Assembly (NCBI RefSeq): GCF_004684085.1
Contig: NZ_SRHZ01000077.1
Location: 1-64,000, forward strand
Direction of reading: 5' to 3'
DNA length: 64,000 bases
Source: Stenotrophomonas maltophilia
GTDB lineage: Bacteria > Pseudomonadota > Gammaproteobacteria > Xanthomonadales > Xanthomonadaceae
Shown in pieces: positions 7,836 to 24,051 of this stretch. The notes under the pieces were generated by a model, which searched no databases, was not told the origin of the DNA, and saw only the letters and a list, made by a program, of their open reading frames with translations. Every line of letters starts with the position of its first letter. The first letter of the stretch is position 1. A program made the translations under genes and the position numbers.

Positions 7836-7945
7836 CCATTTCTTTCGATTCCGGTGGTGCCAGGACGGCCTGCCCGCCCTTCCCCCACCCGTAGCGCATC
7901 GCCTCCTGGATGACGGCCAAACGCGCGTGCTCGTCCAGGACTCCC

Positions 7946-10090
7946 ATGACCCGTCCCGCCTTCCGTACCCTGCAGCCGCAGCGGCTGTCCGTTGCCGTGC
8001 TTGCTGTTCTCTGTGTCGTGGCCCCGGCCGCCTTCGCCGACACCGCCGCCGACCCGACCACGCTGGACAAGGTCGTCGTCAAGGGCGAACGCGCCGAAGG
8101 CTACTCGGTGCGCCGCACCTCGGCGGGTACCCGCTTCGACCTGGCACCCCGCGAGATCCCGCAGTCAATCAGCATCATCAGCCACCAGCGCATCGAAGAT
8201 CAGAAGCTGGACGACATCATCGACGTGCTGGCCAACACCACCGGTGTGACCAGCACCCAGTCCGACAGCGAGCGCACCGAGTTCTATGCCCGTGGCTTCT
8301 ACATCGATGCGTACCAGTTCGATGGCCTGCCGACGCAGATGGTGCAGAACTGGAGCTACGGCGATTCCGGTCTGGACCTGGCGCTGTACGACCGCGTTGA
8401 AGTAGTACGCGGCGCCACCGGCCTGCTCAGCGGCGCCGGCAATCCGTCGGCGTCGGTGAACCTGGTGCGCAAGCATGCCGACAGCGCCGAGCTGACCGGC
8501 AGTGTTTCGGTGAACGTCGGCAGCTGGGGGCGCACCCGCACCACCGTGGACGTGGGACGCGCACTGAACGCCAGTGGCAGCGTGCGCGGCCGCGTGATCG
8601 GCAGCTACCTGGACACCGATGGCCAGATGGACCGCTACAACCAGCGCAAGACGCTGGGCTATGCCGTCATCGATGCCGACCTGACCCCGGATACGCAGCT
8701 GAGCGTGGGTTACGACTACCAGCAGAAGCGCGCCAACGGCGCGACCTGGGGCGGCTTCCCGATGTGGTACGCCGACGGCAGCCCGACCAACTACCCGACC
8801 TCGTTCAATCCGTCGCCGGACTGGACCTACTGGGACACCACCAGCAAGCGTGCGTTCGCCACCCTGCAGCATGCCTTCAGCAACGGCTGGAAGTTCAAGA
8901 TCGGCGCCACCCATGACCGCACCAAGGCCGACGACAAGCTGTTCTATCCGGCCTACACCGCGTTCAACAAGACCACAGGCGCGGGCATCACGCCGATGGC
9001 CGGCTTCTACAACACCGAGCGCAAGGTTGATGGCATCGATGGCTACATCGACGGCCCATTCCAGCTGTTCGGCCGCGAACACCAGTTCATGGCCGGCCTG
9101 AGCTACAACAAGCGCGAATTCACCAACTACGGTGACTTCCAGCCGGATTCCACCGATCCCAATGCCCGGTACCTGCCCCTGGCCAGCTACTTCGGCTGGA
9201 CCGGTGATTTCCCGCAGCCGAACTGGCGACCGCTGAAGCTGGCCAGCCAGGGCACCATCACCCAGAAGGCCGGCTATGCCGCCGCGCGCCTGTCGCTGGC
9301 CGATCCGCTGAAGCTGATCATCGGCGCGCGCTACACCGACTGGAAGAGCGAAGACGAAGGCAACGACCGCTCGCACAAAGTGACCACGCCGTATGCCGGG
9401 CTGGTCTACGACATCAACGATACCTACTCCGCCTACGCCAGCTATACCGAGATCTTCCAGCCGCAGACGCTGCGCAACAAGCAGGGCCGCTACCTCGATC
9501 CGGTCGATGGCAAGAGCTACGAAGTGGGCGTCAAGGGCGCGTGGTTCGACAACCGACTGAATGCATCCGTGGGGGTGTTCCGCATCGAGCAGGACAACGT
9601 TGGCCAGGCGACCATGGACAAGGTCGACGGGCAGTTGAACGAGACCGCCTACATCGCTGCGCGCGGTACCGTCAGCCGTGGCTTCGAGTTCGAAGTGAAT
9701 GGCGAACTGGCACCCGGCTGGAACGCGACTTTCGGTGCTTCGCGCTACGTGGCCAAGGACATCAACGGCGCCGACATCAACACCAACCTGCCGCAGACCG
9801 CGTTGAAGCTGTTCACCAGCTACACCCCGCAGTCGCTGCAGGAATTGACCGTCGGTGGCGGTGCCAACTGGCAGAACCGCATCTACTACGCCGCACCGGT
9901 GGTCGGTCGCTTCGAACAGGAAGGCTATGCACTGGTCAGTGCCTTCGTGCGCTACCGCATCTCGCCGGAGTTCAGCGTGCAGGCCAACCTCAACAACCTG
10001 CTGGACAAGAAGTACTACTCGCAGATCACCGGCTACGGTGCCTACGGCGACGGCCGCAATGGCTCGCTGACGTTCACCTGGGCGTTCTGA
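7946..10090 (+). CDS. TonB-dependent siderophore receptor
   Basis: Outer-membrane gated channel taking up a ferric siderophore using TonB-ExbB-ExbD energy. The 714-aa product has a signal peptide (to about residue 33), the plug domain (REIPQSISIISHQRIED..., VEVVRGATGLLSGAGNPSASVNLV) and a 22-strand barrel ending in Phe. The plug resembles FpvA/FhuE/FoxA-type receptors for hydroxamate or pyoverdine-like ligands. ATG 7946 is preferred over 7910 because AGGA lies five bases upstream and the signal peptide starts there. A possible Fur box at 7816 fits iron regulation. The ligand cannot be identified from sequence. Confidence 0.93.
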   Translation: MTRPAFRTLQPQRLSVAVLAVLCVVAPAAFADTAADPTTLDKVVVKGERAEGYSVRRTSAGTRFDLAPREIPQSISIISHQRIEDQKLDDIIDVLANTTGVTSTQSDSERTEFYARGFYIDAYQFDGLPTQMVQNWSYGDSGLDLALYDRVEVVRGATGLLSGAGNPSASVNLVRKHADSAELTGSVSVNVGSWGRTRTTVDVGRALNASGSVRGRVIGSYLDTDGQMDRYNQRKTLGYAVIDADLTPDTQLSVGYDYQQKRANGATWGGFPMWYADGSPTNYPTSFNPSPDWTYWDTTSKRAFATLQHAFSNGWKFKIGATHDRTKADDKLFYPAYTAFNKTTGAGITPMAGFYNTERKVDGIDGYIDGPFQLFGREHQFMAGLSYNKREFTNYGDFQPDSTDPNARYLPLASYFGWTGDFPQPNWRPLKLASQGTITQKAGYAAARLSLADPLKLIIGARYTDWKSEDEGNDRSHKVTTPYAGLVYDINDTYSAYASYTEIFQPQTLRNKQGRYLDPVDGKSYEVGVKGAWFDNRLNASVGVFRIEQDNVGQATMDKVDGQLNETAYIAARGTVSRGFEFEVNGELAPGWNATFGASRYVAKDINGADINTNLPQTALKLFTSYTPQSLQELTVGGGANWQNRIYYAAPVVGRFEQEGYALVSAFVRYRISPEFSVQANLNNLLDKKYYSQITGYGAYGDGRNGSLTFTWAF

Positions 10091-10199: not shown

Positions 10200-13061
10200 T
10201 CAGAAGCGCAGGTCCGCGCGCAGGTACCAGTAGCGGCCACGCGGGATGTCATAGGTCGAGGCGTCGTAGCCGTTCAACGAGCACGACAGGCAGATCGGCG
10301 GATCCTTGTCGAACACGTTGTTCAAGCCGGCAGTCAGCTGCAGCCCCTTCATCCAGTCGATCTTGTAGCCCACCTGCATGTCGTGGAAGGTGGTGGCCGA
10401 CAGCGTGTTGGTACCTGCGGCCTGGTTGCTGCAGATCGGGAACGCTGCTGCATCACCGCAGTTTTCGGTCAGCTCGGAAATATGGCGCACCGTCCAGTTG
10501 GCGCTCCAGCGGTCCAGTGTCCAGCCGATGCTGGCATTGCTGGTCCATTCCGGAATCGAGCTGTCTGCCACCTCCACGCCCGGCTTCTGCGGCTGCTTCT
10601 GGCCAGCCGCGCCGGTGGCTTCGTAGCGGCCGACGAAGGTGTTCTTCCAGCCCAGCTTGAACTGGCCGATGGAGGACTGCGGCAACGTCCAGAACAGATC
10701 CACGTCCCAGCCGTCGGTCTTGATCGAGCCGAGGTTGGTCAGGCGGTTGTTGAAGCTGCTCACCGCACCGGTGCTGGCACGGGTGATGCCATCGCAGTAG
10801 ATCGAGTCCAGCGTGTCCACACACAGGTCCAGCTGGGTCTGCGCATTGATCGCCTGGATCGCGCCATCGATGGCGTGGCGATAGAAGGTCACTTCCACGT
10901 CAAAGCGTTCCGACCACGAAGTGTTGTTGCCGAACCACGGGCTCCAGACGAAGCCTGCACTGAAGCTGCGCGACCGCTCCGGGTCCAGCTCTCTGTTGCC
11001 GCCGGTGGTCACCGAGATCTGCGAGTTGGCCTGCTGGAAACCGGCCGGCACCCCCAGTGCAGCGCAGTTGGCCGCACTGCCTCGCGGCGGCGTACCGCCC
11101 AGGCCCACCGAGCATGGATCGAACAGCTGCAGGTCGGCACGCGCCGCCGAACCATACAGTTCGCCGATCGACGGTGCGCGGAAGCCCTCGGCATAGGTCG
11201 TGCGCAGCACGAAGTCGTCGGTCACCTGCCAGCGCAGGCCGTACTTGGGCGTGAATTCACCACCGAAGGTCGAGTAATCCGAATAGCGGCCGGCCAGACT
11301 CAGGTCCAGCTTCTTGCCGAAGGTCGAATCGGCGAAGATCGGCACGCTCAACTCCAGGTAGGCCTCGTTGACGTCATAGGAACCCGAGGTGGGCTGCGAT
11401 GGCACGCCGTTGTAATGGCCGGCCACGGTCAGCGGATCCGGCTGGTACGAACCTTCGTACTTGCGGTATTCGAAACCGGTGGCGAACGAGACCGGACCGG
11501 CCGGCAGCGTGAACAGTTCACTGGAGAGGTTGGCGGTGAACAGGCTCAGTTCGTTCTGGCTGCGGTCACGCACCACCGGCTGGATCCACTTCAACATGTC
11601 CGGGGTTATCGAACCAACGCCGCCGAAGATGTTCAGCGGCACGCAGCCCGGCGTCGCCGCACAGATTGCCGGATCGCCGAGCGCCATGTTGACGTTGTAG
11701 ATGTTGTAGCTGCCGTAGTTGGTCTGTTCGGCCTTGTTCTTGCTGTACATGCCGTTGACGTCCCAGTACCAGCTGCGGTTGGCCGCCTGGAAGTTGCCGA
11801 CGAAACCGGTGGCGAAGTACGTGGTATCCACCTTCTGTTCGAACACGCGCGCGCCGCCTTCCACCGGGCGGCGGCCGATCAGGCTCAGGTTGTCGCCGGA
11901 GACCAGATCGAAGCCGAACGGGTTGTAGGGGTTGAGCGCGGACACGGTGATGTTGTCGGCCAGCGGATTGCCGGTGGCGCCATCGGGGCCGAAGAACAGC
12001 GGCTCCGGACCTGCCTGGTTGGTTGACTCGCGGCGGTTGCCCAGCGCCTTGACATACCACTGCACGTTGTCGGTGATGTCGAAGCGGAACTGGCCGAACA
12101 GGCCCTTACGCTCCGACGGTGTCAGCACCATGTTGTATTCGGCGAAGTTGAAGCGATCAGCACTGGTGAAGCAATGATAGTCATCGGTGCGCGCGCAGCC
12201 GGCACTGCCGTCGTAGCGCGGGTTGCTCACGCCGGTATTGGGCACGATGTTCTGCGACGCACCGGTGTTCGGATCGACGAAGGCAAAGCGTCCCTGCGGA
12301 ATGCCGCCGCTGCCGAATGCCAGGCCGGTGCCCGGAATCGGAAAGCGCGACTGCTCGCGATCCTTGGCGAACACGGGGTCCTGCTTGGTCCAGCTGGCGC
12401 CGAGGAACAGGCTGTAGCGGTCGCCGCTCTTGCCCCACGCCAGGTCCACGCCCTTCTGCGTGCCGTCGCCCTTGCTGTACTCACCGTAGTTCAGCGTCAC
12501 CTGGCCGCCATCGAAATCGCGGCGGGTAATGATGTTGACCACGCCGGCGATGGCGTCGGAGCCATACAGCGATGAAGCGCCATCCTCCAGCACTTCGATG
12601 CGTTCGACGATGGCCAGCGGAATGGTATTGAGGTCGGTGGCCGAGCCGACGCCGGATGCGGACGACTCATTGACCCAGCGGATGCCATCGACCAGCACCA
12701 GCACACGCTTGGCACCCAGATGACGCAGATCGACCTGTGCCGAGCCGGCGCCCACACCGCTGCCATCAGGCGGGAAGCCGAAGTTGCCGGACGAGTTGAA
12801 CTTGGCGTTGAGGGCCGAACCGGAACCGGTGAGCTGCTGCAGCACTTCGCCGATCGAGGTCAGGCCGGTGCGTTCGATATCGCCGCGGGTCAGCGTCTGG
12901 ATCGGCACCTGGCCTTCCACTTCAGCGCGCTTGATGCGGGTACCGGTGACTTCCACCGCGTCCAGATTGGTGGTGGATTGTGCAGCGGCACCCAACGGTG
13001 CCAGGGTCATCACGCACAGCGCGACGGCAACCGCCAAAGGGCGGTGGTGCAGGTGATTCAT
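10200..13061 (-). CDS. TonB-dependent receptor (large, carbohydrate/unknown ligand type)
   Basis: Outer-membrane TonB-dependent transporter of 953 aa. It has a signal peptide (about 1-27), a TonB-box-like stretch ([18 protein letters not shown]), a plug with [12 protein letters not shown] and [29 protein letters not shown], and a barrel ending in RADLRF. The plug style ([22 protein letters not shown]) matches the large receptor group common in Xanthomonadaceae and sphingomonads, whose ligands are mostly unknown. ATG 13061 is chosen because GGAGAGAG precedes it; the longer frame opens only with TTG. A 9-bp palindrome lies at 13190-13216, upstream of the promoter region. Confidence 0.9.
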
Positions 13062-13425
13062 TCGCTCTCTCTCCAAAGGAATGTCGGGACTTGGGCTGCC
13101 GCACTCCCTCCCTGCATGGCGGCGCCGTCTCCTTTGTAAACAAGTGGTAAAAATCGCGGCGTGATGATCGACACTCTTTCACGCGAAATTGACGCAATTG
13201 CGGGCCGATTGCGTCAGATAGCTACAGGTTATGACCGGACGATACTGTTCACAGCAGGCAGCCTTGATGCCGGCTGCGACAGCGCGCGCCGGGTGCTGCC
13301 GCATTCATGGAAAAGGTCTTTGCGGGCCCGTTCTAGGAATAGTTTGAAATTCCTTCATTCAGAAGGCACCGCAAATCGACCCCGCGCAGACTCGTATCTC
13401 CAGCCATTCGTGGGAGGACCGAATC
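13062..13425. other. Divergent intergenic region
   Basis: This 364-base region holds the promoters of the TonB receptor (minus) and the small secreted protein (plus). It is more AT-rich than its surroundings, for example TTTGTAAACAAGTGGTAAAA at 13133-13152. It contains one clear palindrome (13190-13216). A GGAGG at about 13412-13416 serves the plus-strand gene. No further gene is seen. Confidence 0.5.
13190..13216. promoter_or_regulatory. 9-bp inverted repeat, candidate operator
   Basis: TGACGCAAT and ATTGCGTCA are perfect reverse complements separated by 9 bases. The site lies about 130 bases upstream of the TonB receptor start and about 210 upstream of the small secreted protein. It looks like a binding site for a dimeric regulator; the regulator is unknown. 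Confidence 0.4.
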
Positions 13426-13776: not shown

Positions 13777-14184
13777 CTACCGCACGAACGCAATGCGCTC
13801 CATACCGGTCGCCTCGGCCGCGGCCAGAATCTTTGCCATGCCTTCGTACTCGGCGGCCGGATCGGTGGCGATGCGCAGCTCCGGCAGGTTGCCGGCATGC
13901 TCGCCCGCCTGTGCCTGCAAGCGCGCCTGCAGTTCGCCGATTGCCATCGGCTGGCCATCCCAGCTCAGCTGGTTCGATGCATCCAGGCGCAGCTCGATCG
14001 GCGGCGGTGGATCGGGACGGTCAACCACGCGATCGGTGGCCTGTGGCAACTGCACGGCAATCGGCCGGGCCACGATCGGCGCGGTCACGATGAAGATGAT
14101 CAACAGCACCAGCATCACATCCACCAGTGGCGTGACATTGATGTCCGCCAGCGGGCCGCTTCTTCCTGCGCTACTGAACGCCAT
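13777..14184 (-). CDS. ExbD/TolR family biopolymer transport protein
   Basis: Inner-membrane proton-channel partner of the ExbB-ExbD or TolQ-TolR type, coupling proton flow to TonB or Tol work. The 135-aa product has the family signature ADINVTPLVDVMLVLLIIFIV: one N-terminal transmembrane helix carrying the essential Asp, followed by a periplasmic domain. ATG 14184 gives a standard short N-terminus; the longer frame is spurious. No exbB or tonB is adjacent, so it is an orphan here, 87 bases downstream of the asparaginase gene on the same strand. Confidence 0.88.
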   Translation of the reverse strand: MAFSSAGRSGPLADINVTPLVDVMLVLLIIFIVTAPIVARPIAVQLPQATDRVVDRPDPPPPIELRLDASNQLSWDGQPMAIGELQARLQAQAGEHAGNLPELRIATDPAAEYEGMAKILAAAEATGMERIAFVR

Positions 14185-14271: not shown

Positions 14272-15270
14272 TCAGCTGCCGTTGCTCACGCCTCCGCCAT
14301 AGCCTTGCAGGCGCTCCTGCAGAGAGTCGAGTGCGTCCGAGCCGATGAGCGCCCACAACAACAGGCGACATTTACGGGGGCACAGTGATCCCGCCATCAA
14401 CAGGCCCCGGCGCTGAAGGTGGATTTCCCCACCGGCAAAGCCGTAGGTGTGACGTGCCGTCGCTCCGGCGCCGGTGCGCGACGCGATGATGATGGGACGA
14501 TGCACTGCGGCACGCGCCAATGGTTCAACCCAGCCCGAAGGCACATGACCGGCACCCATCGCCGCTACTACCACCCCCTCGCATCCGCTTTCGAGCACTG
14601 AATGCAACAGTTCCGGACCTTCACCCAGCGTTGCCTCCAGCAGCGCCACGCGCTGTTGCACCCGCGTGGGAGCGAGCGCAACAGGACGTTCCGGAGCCGG
14701 CCCTGCATACCTGCACTGTCCTTCCCGCACCAAGCCGATGCAGCCATGACCCGGTGATTGGAAGGCGTCGAGGTCGAGGCTGTGCACCTTGCGTACCTGG
14801 TCCGCAGCGTACAGGCGGTCCAGCATGGCGACCACGACGCCGCGCCTGCTTGTATGCGGTTCCAGTGCCGCAACCGCTGCGGCCAGCACATTGCCGGGGC
14901 CATCAGCACCGGCTGCATCTGCGCCGCGCATGGCACCAGTCAAGACCAGCGGCTGTGGATGCGGCCATAGCAGATCCAGCAGGTAAGCCGACTCCTCAAG
15001 CGTGTCGGTGCCTTGGGTGATGACAACGCCGTCAGCGCCGTCGCCCACCATCGTGTCGGCCCAGTCCCGTGCGGCAAGCACGTCAACCCAGGACATCGAT
15101 GCACTGGGGGACAAACCGAGCGTGTGCGCCTGCACGGATGCCAACCTGTTCAGCCCCGGAACTGCCTCCACCACCATCTTTGCGGAGATTTTCGGAACGA
15201 TGCCCACCTCGGCGGCATCATCTCGCATGCTGAGGGTGCCGCCGAGTGACCCCAATGCCAACCGTTTCAT
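14272..15270 (-). CDS. Asparaginase
   Basis: Hydrolyses L-asparagine, possibly glutamine, to the acid and ammonia. The 332-aa product has both catalytic Thr motifs: LGSLGGTLSM (Thr12) and VITQGTDTLEESAY (Thr88-Asp89). It also has the TGAMRGADAAGADGPGNVL and KVHSLDLDAFQSP segments typical of type I/II asparaginases. No signal peptide is seen, so it is predicted to be cytoplasmic. Its ATG overlaps the TGA of the upstream membrane-protein gene (ATGA), implying translational coupling. The upstream nitrilase, also an amide hydrolase, suggests a joint role in amide nitrogen scavenging; that is inferred. Confidence 0.9.
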   Translation of the reverse strand: MKRLALGSLGGTLSMRDDAAEVGIVPKISAKMVVEAVPGLNRLASVQAHTLGLSPSASMSWVDVLAARDWADTMVGDGADGVVITQGTDTLEESAYLLDLLWPHPQPLVLTGAMRGADAAGADGPGNVLAAAVAALEPHTSRRGVVVAMLDRLYAADQVRKVHSLDLDAFQSPGHGCIGLVREGQCRYAGPAPERPVALAPTRVQQRVALLEATLGEGPELLHSVLESGCEGVVVAAMGAGHVPSGWVEPLARAAVHRPIIIASRTGAGATARHTYGFAGGEIHLQRRGLLMAGSLCPRKCRLLLWALIGSDALDSLQERLQGYGGGVSNGS

Positions 15271-16457
15271 ATGGTTCCCTTCAATACCCACCCCACTGCA
15301 GGCACGATCAGCAGAACGCCTGCCGCCATCGACAGGAGATTGCCGATATACGGATGCACGTGCGCCGGCAAGCGAGCCGAACATGCCGCAGCCAACGGAG
15401 GCGTCAGCAGTGCCCCCAGCAGCGCGGACAGCACCACCACTGCCGCGCTGCCGCCGTGAGCAAGAATGCAGGCAGGAACCACGGAGACAATCGGGATGTA
15501 CGTGGGATACCAGCCCCCTTGGATCCAGCGCTCCCGCCATACCCAGACCCCAACCGCAGAGGCGAGCGCCTGGCCGCACAGCAATGCCATCAGCCAACCG
15601 GTGCCATAGAAGGGGCCGACAGGCTGCAGCAGCGCGGCCAGCAGTACGCCGCCGATCAGCCCGGCACTGGCGAGCTCGTTACCCAGGAATGGAGCCTCAC
15701 TGAAGTCTGCCAGCACCCGGCGCATGCCCCATCGCCAGCCATGCCGCGTGACGGGCGCAGCGGGCGCTGGCCCAGGCGCAGCGGGAACCGGATTCCAGCC
15801 CAGCCGCCTCGCGGCGACAAAGGTGGCCGCGCTTGCCAAAGCCATTGCAAGGACGTTGCCGATGACGGCGGGCAGGCCCAGCGGTGCGCAGACCTGATTC
15901 ACCAGCAACAAGGCCAGCGGCGTGACCAGCAATGCGCCAGATGCAGCGGCGATTCCCGTAATCTTCCATCCGCCGCCGAACAGCAGCACCATCGCCGCCG
16001 GCAGCGATACCGCAGCAACAAACGTGGGTTGCCAGCGCCCGTCCTGCACCGCGCTGGCAAATACCATGTTGGCAAGCACCAGTCCGCCGATCGAAGCCAC
16101 CGCGACCCAGGGCCAGCGGCCAGTGCCATAGCAGACCGGAAATCCCTGCCATCGCTTTCCTCGCCGGTGCGCCCAATGGGCTAGTGCAGCACCACCGATC
16201 AGACCGAGCGAGGCGAACTCGTGCTTGTAGAAGGTCACCTCACTGGCATCGCCAACCCACCATCGCCAGCGGCCCGCCCATGTTGCGAGGCTGCCCATCA
16301 ACTGGCTGTGGTCTGGCCAGAGCTGGCCGGGGGACATCGTGCGCCAACCGGCTACCATCGTCACGATGATCGCCAGTGCAAACGTCGCTGAGAACAGTGC
16401 CCAGCCCCAGTGGCTGCGGGCGGCTGGCGACTGAGCCGGTAAGGGGGGGCGCGCCAT
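15267..16457 (-). CDS. Polytopic membrane protein with internal duplication
   Basis: A 396-aa integral membrane protein not recognised as a known family. Two homologous halves are visible. Residues 81-89 (FASLGLIGG) match 262-270 (LASAGLIGG). CYGTGRW (109-115) matches FYGTGWL (283-289). GRWQPTFVAAVSLPA (140-154) matches GGWYPTYIPIVSVVPA (314-329). VIGNVLAMA (198-206) matches YIGNLLSMA (370-378). An Ala/Pro-rich hinge (223-236) joins them. Such duplications are typical of transporters. It lies 9 bases after the nitrilase stop and overlaps the asparaginase start, so a permease for an amide or its product is the leading guess. Confidence 0.8.
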   Translation of the reverse strand: MARPPLPAQSPAARSHWGWALFSATFALAIIVTMVAGWRTMSPGQLWPDHSQLMGSLATWAGRWRWWVGDASEVTFYKHEFASLGLIGGAALAHWAHRRGKRWQGFPVCYGTGRWPWVAVASIGGLVLANMVFASAVQDGRWQPTFVAAVSLPAAMVLLFGGGWKITGIAAASGALLVTPLALLLVNQVCAPLGLPAVIGNVLAMALASAATFVAARRLGWNPVPAAPGPAPAAPVTRHGWRWGMRRVLADFSEAPFLGNELASAGLIGGVLLAALLQPVGPFYGTGWLMALLCGQALASAVGVWVWRERWIQGGWYPTYIPIVSVVPACILAHGGSAAVVVLSALLGALLTPPLAAACSARLPAHVHPYIGNLLSMAAGVLLIVPAVGWVLKGTI

Positions 16458-16466
16458 GCGGGAGCC

Positions 16467-17363
16467 TCAGCGCGGCAGCATGGGATGCTGGCGATAGCCC
16501 AGCATCGGATCGAAGAGATCGGTACGCCTGTCGCGGCAGAGATCGTTCAGGGAATTCCAGATCGGCGCGCTGCGTGCCGTGGACAGGTCCACCTCGGCCA
16601 TCACCACCGCCTCGCCTTCAGGCGCTGCGATCGGGGCCAGCGGCCATCCGTTGGTACCGACAATCAACGAGCACCCCAGGAAGCGTTCCCCGCGATCTGC
16701 GCCGACGCGGTTGGCCGCTGCGATGAACACGTTGTTGACGTGTGCGGCGGTCATCGTCAGGTAGCTGGCCATGCAGCGCCCGCTTTCATCGAACAATGGC
16801 GGCGGCGTCCACACCCAGCAGTTGAGGCTGAGGATGATGTCGGCCCCCTGCAACGCAAGCAGGCGTGGCACCTCCGGGAACCAGACATCCCAGCAGATCA
16901 TCAGGCCGATCCGGCCAACGCTCGTCTCGAACACCGGATAGCCGAGGTCGCCGGCACAGAAGTAGAGCTTCTCACGGCACCATAGATGGGTCTTGCGATA
17001 GCGCCCGATATAGCCGCCCGGACCGAACAACACGGCAGTGTTGTAAAGACGGGCACCATCGCGTTCAGCAATGCCCACGGCCAGATGGATGCCCGCCTCG
17101 CGCGCGAAGGCCTCCCAGTATTGCGCCGTCGTTCCATCAGGCACGGATTCAGCCATCGCAAACGCTTCTGCCCGGCTGTTGAATGAATAGCCGGTGGAGC
17201 AGAGCTCCGGCAGCACGACCAGGTGCGCGCCCCGCTCCACGGCCTGTGCAGCAAGCAGCTGCGCCCGCTCGATGTTGGCCGGAACGTTTTCCGACCCGCA
17301 TTGTGGATCGAACTGGATGACGGCAACCGAGACAGGACTGAATGGCGTAGGCTGGACTGACAT
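16467..17363 (-). CDS. Nitrilase-superfamily carbon-nitrogen hydrolase
   Basis: Amidase-type enzyme that cleaves a C-N bond of an amide or nitrile. The 298-aa product has the complete Glu-Lys-Cys triad: LPELC (Glu53), YRKTHLW (Lys124) and MICWDVWFPEVPR (Cys157). It lacks an N-terminal export signal and a glutamine-dependent synthetase domain, so it is a free-standing cytoplasmic amidohydrolase. The start at 17363 is chosen since the conserved core (VSVAVIQFDP) begins at residue 11; the longer frame adds unrelated sequence. First gene of a three-gene operon with a membrane protein and an asparaginase. The substrate is unknown. Confidence 0.9.
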   Translation of the reverse strand: MSVQPTPFSPVSVAVIQFDPQCGSENVPANIERAQLLAAQAVERGAHLVVLPELCSTGYSFNSRAEAFAMAESVPDGTTAQYWEAFAREAGIHLAVGIAERDGARLYNTAVLFGPGGYIGRYRKTHLWCREKLYFCAGDLGYPVFETSVGRIGLMICWDVWFPEVPRLLALQGADIILSLNCWVWTPPPLFDESGRCMASYLTMTAAHVNNVFIAAANRVGADRGERFLGCSLIVGTNGWPLAPIAAPEGEAVVMAEVDLSTARSAPIWNSLNDLCRDRRTDLFDPMLGYRQHPMLPR

Positions 17364-23912: not shown

Positions 23913-24051
23913 GCGTCGACCAAGGTCGACACCTACCAGAGCCGAGCATGGCTCGGCTCTACAGGATCATGACAGCGGCAGGGTTCATGTCGACCAAGGT
24001 CGACACCCACCAGAGCGGGTCATGCCGCCGGGCATGGCCCGGCGCTACCAG
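23913..24051. repeat. Cluster of four SMAG-like palindromes
   Basis: GTCGACCAAGGTCGACACCTAC (about 23914-23936), AGAGCCGAGCATGGCTCGGCTCTAC (23938-23962), GTCGACCAAGGTCGACACCCAC (about 23989-24010) and GCCGCCGGGCATGGCCCGGCG-CTAC (about 24024-24048). The last supplies the TAG stop of the autotransporter gene. Confidence 0.85.

Follow-up and report, generated by a model that had tools for sequence, protein, structure and literature searches.

A predicted urea-transporter-fold membrane protein coupled to putative amide hydrolases in Stenotrophomonas and Pseudomonas

In Stenotrophomonas maltophilia, an operon on contig NZ_SRHZ01000077.1 (assembly GCF_004684085.1) places the gene of a membrane protein between those of two relatives of amide-hydrolysing enzymes, which raises the question of what the membrane protein carries and whether the three products act together. 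The window, that is the whole stretch of DNA analysed, comprises positions 1 to 64,000 of this contig. The initial annotation proposed three coupled genes, and the coordinates bear this out: nine bases separate the stop of the first gene, a nitrilase homologue (NIT), from the start of the second, the membrane protein (PERM), whose stop shares a 4-base ATGA overlap with the start of the third, an asparaginase homologue (ASN). The gene order, conservation, predicted fold and conserved catalytic residues were all obtained by computation. They point to a membrane protein that resembles the urea transporters in its modelled structure and may pass a small amide to the enzymes encoded beside it.

Predicted fold of PERM

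PERM has no family in Pfam, NCBIfam or PHROGs and no sequence relative in the PDB, so that the initial description of a membrane protein of no recognised family holds at the level of sequence; its predicted fold, however, is recognisable. An AlphaFold2 model built from 93 sequences (pLDDT 82.9, pTM 0.84) retrieves urea transporters as its eight best chains in a Foldseek search of the PDB (probability 1.00, E 5.5e-4 to 1.9e-2), and all matches to other proteins stay at a probability of 0.16 or less. An earlier model from 15 sequences (pLDDT 70.2) gives the same ranking of structural neighbours, with five chains at probability 1.00, all of them urea transporters. When Foldseek's own match list is re-aligned with VIA-align, 16 urea-transporter entries align with the 93-sequence model over 287-309 residues (Z 21.7-22.9, rmsd 3.3-4.3), followed by Rh/Amt ammonia channels at Z 12.0-13.2 and Rnf/Nqr subunits below 10. 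The PERM model shows an additional N-terminal helix compared with the urea transporters. Its two halves are homologous (hhalign probability 99.5, E 2.2e-23, 141 columns, 33% identity), as are the halves of urea transporters (probability 99.2). The model thus makes it very probable that PERM has the urea-transporter fold.

Each half also contains a candidate pore slot, SEVTFYKHE in the first and SEAPFLGNE in the second. In the alignment of 93 of the 100 PERM proteins, E73, F76, K78, H79 and E80 of the first motif and E254 of the second are present in 93/93, and F257 in 92/93. A Glu-x-x-Phe filter pattern therefore occurs in both halves, its register being set by sequence pattern and not by superposition. 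In dvUT, Glu187, Val188 and Phe190 belong to one filter site according to the available part of the source (PMC4357013), and the second-half motif of PERM resembles this Glu187-Val188-x-Phe190 arrangement.

The urea-transporter profile PF03253 matches neither the window PERM nor the 15 members and four further members searched with it. If the model is right, PERM is a protein of urea-transporter fold that nevertheless lies outside the urea-transporter family by sequence. Weak Pfam matches were judged to be chance; they comprise ThrE in 6 of the 15 members (E up to 10; best E 0.0066) and ten other families, each matching one or two of the 15 at E up to 10.

Distribution and gene content of PERM loci

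A pattern scan of GTDB species genomes yields 14 relatives of PERM, three in Stenotrophomonas and 11 in Pseudomonas. A profile of 15 PERM proteins detects the gene in 103 of the 298 Pseudomonas genomes sampled (the genus of Pseudomonas monteilii, the genome of locus L016). Of 199 genomes related to that of the window, five, among them the window genome itself, match a single PERM query, all from the same genus as the window. Wider sampling adds little: the class gives 2/369, namely the window genome and a doubtful match with stops (E 3.1e-4), and the phylum 2/398, namely the window genome and a second whose match has the coordinates and score of G711, a Pseudomonas genome of the 298-genome sample, and which is therefore probably identical with it. 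Within this sampling, the family seems confined to Pseudomonas and a few Stenotrophomonas. The Stenotrophomonas proteins fall into two types of about 55% identity, and since these are no nearer to each other than to Pseudomonas PERM, separate transfers are suggested; in a quick PERM tree the five Stenotrophomonas rows group on long branches, which cannot decide the matter. One Pseudomonas genome (G599, locus L167) carries two PERM genes, separated by about 10 kb.

Gene content was compared at 99 loci, 95 from Pseudomonas and four from Stenotrophomonas. Among the 103 PERM-bearing Pseudomonas genomes, four with broken or split PERM frames were excluded (G613, G622, G859, G862), as were three already represented (L016, L010, L007) and one on a short contig (G778). 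The set contains repeats of the 14 loci compared first: L073, L074 and L081 equal L011, L014 and L012; L003-L005 recur as three of its four Stenotrophomonas loci. In those first 14 loci NIT lies upstream of PERM in every case (cut by a contig end at L008 and with an apparent frame break at L006), and ASN lies downstream in 8/14. In many Pseudomonas loci the gene of a flavoenzyme (FMO) joins these three. With fragments counted, the 99 loci comprise 51 with FMO-NIT-PERM-ASN, 21 with FMO-NIT-PERM, 14 with NIT-PERM-ASN, 11 with NIT-PERM, one with FMO-PERM and one with PERM alone.

The constant core is NIT and PERM. NIT occurs within the region in 97/99 loci and is full and directly upstream of PERM in 95/99; two exceptions are a fragment at L118 and the order PERM-FMO-NIT-ASN at L160 (Pseudomonas, G627). 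Because NIT directly precedes PERM in two genera, their coupling appears to be more than chance. Across the 298 Pseudomonas genomes, NIT of at least 69% identity is present in 101 of 103 with PERM versus 6 of 195 without it, a contrast inflated by shared ancestry and leaving five matches at 48-49% identity uncounted.

ASN and FMO are more variable. At a stricter threshold ASN is matched in 65/99 loci, one of them over just 71 codons, which leaves 64 of normal length and 35/99 in which it is absent or cut. The three-gene order, whose conservation outside Stenotrophomonas had been named as a check, is thus seen in Pseudomonas, so that this check does not refute the proposal, but ASN is not a constant member. 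At the same threshold FMO is matched in 70/99 loci, in 54 of them over more than 600 codons (near full length). A quick tree of PERM with 100 rows requires 27 changes for intact FMO and 11 for ASN (two rows being unusable for FMO and one for ASN, at contig ends), so that each of these genes is variable against a mostly stable NIT-PERM pair. In many cases the FMO frame is interrupted or reduced to a fragment although NIT and PERM are complete (L012, L015, L081, L114 and others), and FMO seems to decay repeatedly.

Partner enzymes and possible cargo

NIT is a member of the CN hydrolase superfamily (Pfam PF00795, 182.7 bits against a cut-off of 23.2) with the Glu-Lys-Cys triad: Glu53, Lys124, Glu131 and Cys157, which we take to be its catalytic positions, are identical in 13/13 aligned relatives. 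The closest solved structures are 3ivz, 1j31, 6ypa and 7ovg (E 2.2e-58 to 2.9e-56), presumably nitrilase/amidase chains of Pyrococcus. A segment of NIT, WTPPPLFDE...CMASYLTMTAAH, is absent from these solved chains, as judged from the alignments for 3ivz and 1j31. The protein scores below the NCBIfam cut-offs for nitrilase (NF040852, 216.1 against 500 bits) and for N-carbamoylputrescine amidase (TIGR03381, 160 against 410.25 bits). It is probably a nitrilase-superfamily amidase, and the suggestion that a nitrile might be the substrate finds no support.

ASN belongs to the class-1 asparaginase fold family, with both Pfam domains (PF00710, 159.1 bits; PF17763, 71.7 bits) and the Thr, Thr-Asp and Lys of that family. 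Thr12, Ser58, Thr88, Asp89, Lys161 and Glu282, presumably the catalytic positions, are identical in 9/9 aligned proteins. Val25 of ASN aligns with the mobile-loop tyrosine of 2wlt, which we take to correspond to Tyr25 of E. coli AnsB, and the nine proteins have V, T, K or R at this position and never Tyr. The catalytic residues are therefore intact in both enzymes, as the initial annotation held, except for this loop tyrosine. ASN is not a type I or type II L-asparaginase by NCBIfam (TIGR00520, 153.9/314.3 bits; TIGR00519, 102.4/260.5 bits). Neither NIT nor ASN has a signal peptide visible by eye.

FMO, encoded outside the window, is an amino-acid oxidase/monooxygenase-type flavoenzyme (Pfam Amino_oxidase). 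The window genome gave no match, in a search without a positive control of its own; the same query found none in four further Stenotrophomonas genomes, whereas among 11 Pseudomonas genomes it gave seven strong matches (E below 1e-150), two fragments and two cases with distant paralogues only. The best solved relative is tryptophan 2-monooxygenase (TMO; 4iv9, E 4.4e-37 with the family profile). Arg118, Tyr503, Trp505 and Trp606 are present in 24/24 FMO proteins, and Arg118, the SYTW motif holding Tyr503 and Trp505, Gly605 and Trp606 align on their TMO counterparts. The carboxylate-binding and cage positions of L-amino-acid oxidase/monooxygenase (L-AAO/MOG) are named in the accessible part of PMC5832979, and the carboxylate-binding Arg, SYxW and cage Trp of an L-amino-acid oxidase or 2-monooxygenase can be recognised in FMO by motif equivalence. 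The same part of that source names TMO Phe244 and Val247 as specificity positions and equates Val247 with L-AAO/MOG Asp238, which selects basic side chains. FMO has Trp281 and Phe284 at these two positions, which argues for a neutral L-amino acid as substrate and not lysine or arginine.

The kinship with TMO allows an auxin-type pathway in Pseudomonas, in which FMO would convert tryptophan to indole-3-acetamide and NIT would convert the latter to indole-3-acetic acid, with PERM moving a product. It could draw on TMO being the closest solved protein and on Gly605, which aligns with the Gly preceding the TMO cage Trp, a residue linked to wider pockets in the part of PMC5832979 available. Trp281 and Phe284, however, suggest a narrower pocket than that of TMO, a urea-transporter-type slot seems too narrow for indoles, and Stenotrophomonas retains NIT-PERM-ASN where FMO is not found; such a pathway is very unlikely. 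A Pseudomonas flavin monoamine oxidase is induced by 3-cyanoalanine (PMC8567248), and the available part of that paper contains no link to the present operon.

The preferred explanation is a pathway of small-amide utilisation. PERM would act as a channel or facilitator of urea-transporter fold that passes a small, mostly neutral amide across the inner membrane. NIT would hydrolyse this amide in the cytoplasm to an acid and ammonia, and ASN would remove a further carboxamide, for example from a diamide or from a product resembling succinamate or asparagine. In many Pseudomonas the FAD enzyme FMO would start the unit, probably by oxidative decarboxylation of a neutral L-amino acid to an amide, following the logic of lysine 2-monooxygenase and aminovaleramidase. 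The amide could then arise inside or outside the cell in FMO-bearing Pseudomonas, and would come from outside in the window Stenotrophomonas. A dedicated pathway of amide uptake and hydrolysis had been proposed from the three genes of the window. It gains weight because PERM has the urea-transporter fold in its model, but has to be widened for the many Pseudomonas loci with FMO. Small amides would suit that fold, since formamide, acetamide and acrylamide, in addition to water and ammonia, are reported to pass through UT-B (PMC12839047). They would also suit the operon partners, two amide hydrolases that lack a visible signal peptide. On these grounds an amide is slightly favoured as what PERM conducts. 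We infer its cargo, the direction of transport, the enzyme substrates and a role in nitrogen scavenging, and give a joint pathway of PERM, NIT, ASN and the Pseudomonas FMO a rough probability of 0.45.

PERM might instead pass ammonia, or urea, and serve as a pore that vents or scavenges the ammonia which every enzyme of the set would be expected to release. The fold itself, the Rh/Amt ammonia channels as next structural neighbours and the passage of ammonia attributed to UT-B (PMC12839047) all fit such a pore. Urea is made unlikely as cargo by the absence of urease alpha from the five PERM-bearing Stenotrophomonas genomes (0/5, against 14/15 Pseudomonas in the same search; urea amidolyase was not searched for). 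In addition, 64 of 79 Pseudomonas genomes already have a PF03253 protein; none was found in the window genome. Against ammonia the sole point is that PERM travels with NIT in particular. A pore for ammonia or urea is on balance unlikely.

Several observations weigh against the small-amide pathway or parts of it. The LPxxTxPF-type signature is found in 0/93 PERM proteins and in 21/21 urea transporters (twice or more in 14/21). Whole-profile hhalign of PERM with these 21 is not significant (probability 3.9%, P 0.011; PERM alignment Neff 2.2), and the best match between a PERM half and a urea-transporter half (probability 24.3, P 0.0008) spans only 23 columns. All NCBIfam cut-offs are missed by both NIT and ASN. 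FMO is unmatched in 29 of 98 usable tree rows at the stricter threshold, its joint occurrence with ASN is not clear on the tree (sign test, median p 0.625), and its product could be either an amide or a keto acid. R65, D70, K78, H79, E80, R246, R247, D251 and E261 are conserved in 93/93 PERM proteins, more charge than would be expected of a plain urea slot.

These charged residues leave room for a charged cargo. PERM could be a carrier of urea-transporter fold for an amino acid or charged amide such as asparagine, glutamine or succinamate, which NIT and ASN would process. Lys78, His79, Arg246, Arg247, Asp70, Asp251, Glu80 and Glu261 look unusual for a neutral-solute slot, and ASN retains most of the asparaginase active site. 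No amino-acid carrier appears by title among the urea-transporter-fold entries listed, however, and PERM stays in the loci that lack an intact ASN, so that a carrier of this kind is improbable.

The small-amide pathway remains preferred, and a structural class can be proposed for a membrane protein family not covered by Pfam and NCBIfam, whose gene is linked to those of two putative amide hydrolases and, in many loci, of a flavoenzyme. More tentatively, PERM may be a branch of the urea-transporter fold unseen by profiles and dedicated to amides, and FMO-NIT-PERM-ASN an undescribed nitrogen pathway from amino acid to amide to acid, which roughly one in three of the Pseudomonas genomes sampled would have, with a patchy occurrence in Stenotrophomonas. 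Among the titles and abstract openings listed by a full-text literature search, with most subscription papers outside its scope, none describes this gene set, and no claim is made that the set is unpublished. Should PERM conduct amides, a branch of the urea-transporter fold would be dedicated to them, and a genus common in soil and on plants would possess an uncharted nitrogen route.

Surroundings of the operon and related systems

Table 1. Genes of the operon and segments of PERM in the window
Feature	Coordinates	Strand	Extent	Description
NIT	17363..16467	-	298 aa	First gene; CN hydrolase, probable amidase (Pfam, alignments)
PERM	16457..15267	-	396 aa	Second gene; membrane protein, predicted urea-transporter fold
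ASN	15270..14272	-	332 aa	Third gene; class-1 asparaginase homologue
PERM repeat half 1	15822..16271	-	residues 63-212	hhalign
PERM repeat half 2	15306..15728	-	residues 244-384	hhalign
PERM SEVTFYKHE	16218..16244	-	residues 72-80	Candidate pore slot, half 1; placed by sequence pattern
PERM SEAPFLGNE	15675..15701	-	residues 253-261	Candidate pore slot, half 2; placed by sequence pattern

Downstream of the operon (Table 1) lie an ExbD/TolR-type gene (13777-14184, minus strand; if the ATG at 14184 is its start, it lies 87 bases beyond ASN) and, at a greater distance, the gene of a TonB-dependent receptor (10200-13076, minus strand), which is adjacent and convergent to a second receptor gene (7910-10090, plus strand). 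The same succession of an ExbD-type gene and a TonB-dependent receptor follows the operon at Stenotrophomonas locus L003. A TonB link as part of the system was rejected: the other 13 of the first 14 loci gave no ExbD match and a single distant receptor match, on the opposite strand (L006).

In Pseudomonas, a regulator family of 331 aa is encoded upstream on the same strand in 33/95 loci, more often than any other additional gene. The single member scanned has DJ-1/PfpI and AraC domains, and the regulator also occurs at loci without FMO, such as L100, L113 and L132. A protein of about 506 aa, a PAS-LuxR regulator by eye, is encoded downstream on the same strand in 17/95 (e.g., L013:6937-8457). 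Neighbour genes were predicted by a rule of length and GC3, and rarer ones may be missed. Elsewhere in the window, a C4 antisense RNA (RF01695, 23334-23429, plus strand, 52.3 bits) is the sole Rfam match at gathering scores, with a small open frame seen by eye just downstream. At about 23917-24030, two copies of GTCGACCAAGGTCGACACC are followed by a palindromic sequence, REP-like by eye.

DavB-DavA is a pair of lysine catabolism. It and L-AAO/MOG, as far as the available part of PMC5832979 describes the latter, resemble the Pseudomonas version of the present unit, in which a flavoenzyme of L-amino-acid oxidase/monooxygenase type is likewise combined with a member of the nitrilase superfamily. 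FMO differs in having Phe at the equivalent of Asp238 and the unit adds PERM and ASN; unlike the Pseudomonas version, the window genome has no FMO match. The class-1 L-asparaginases (types I and II) and GatD share with ASN both Pfam domains, Thr12, Thr88-Asp89, Lys161 and Glu282, and the L-asparaginases differ from it by the loop tyrosine and by the NCBIfam cut-offs that ASN does not reach.

The amiE-amiS amide operons would work alike, with a nitrilase-superfamily amidase beside a small-solute channel. The AmiS/UreI family of those operons has a fold that differs from that of urea transporters; in the operon described here a membrane protein of predicted urea-transporter fold takes this place, followed by an asparaginase homologue. 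With the urea transporters themselves (SLC14/PF03253; dvUT, UT-B), PERM shares the predicted fold, the two homologous halves and Glu-x-x-Phe in both. It differs from them in lacking a PF03253 match and an LPxxTxPF-type signature, in the additional N-terminal helix of its model, in its many conserved charged residues and in its coupling to amidase genes.

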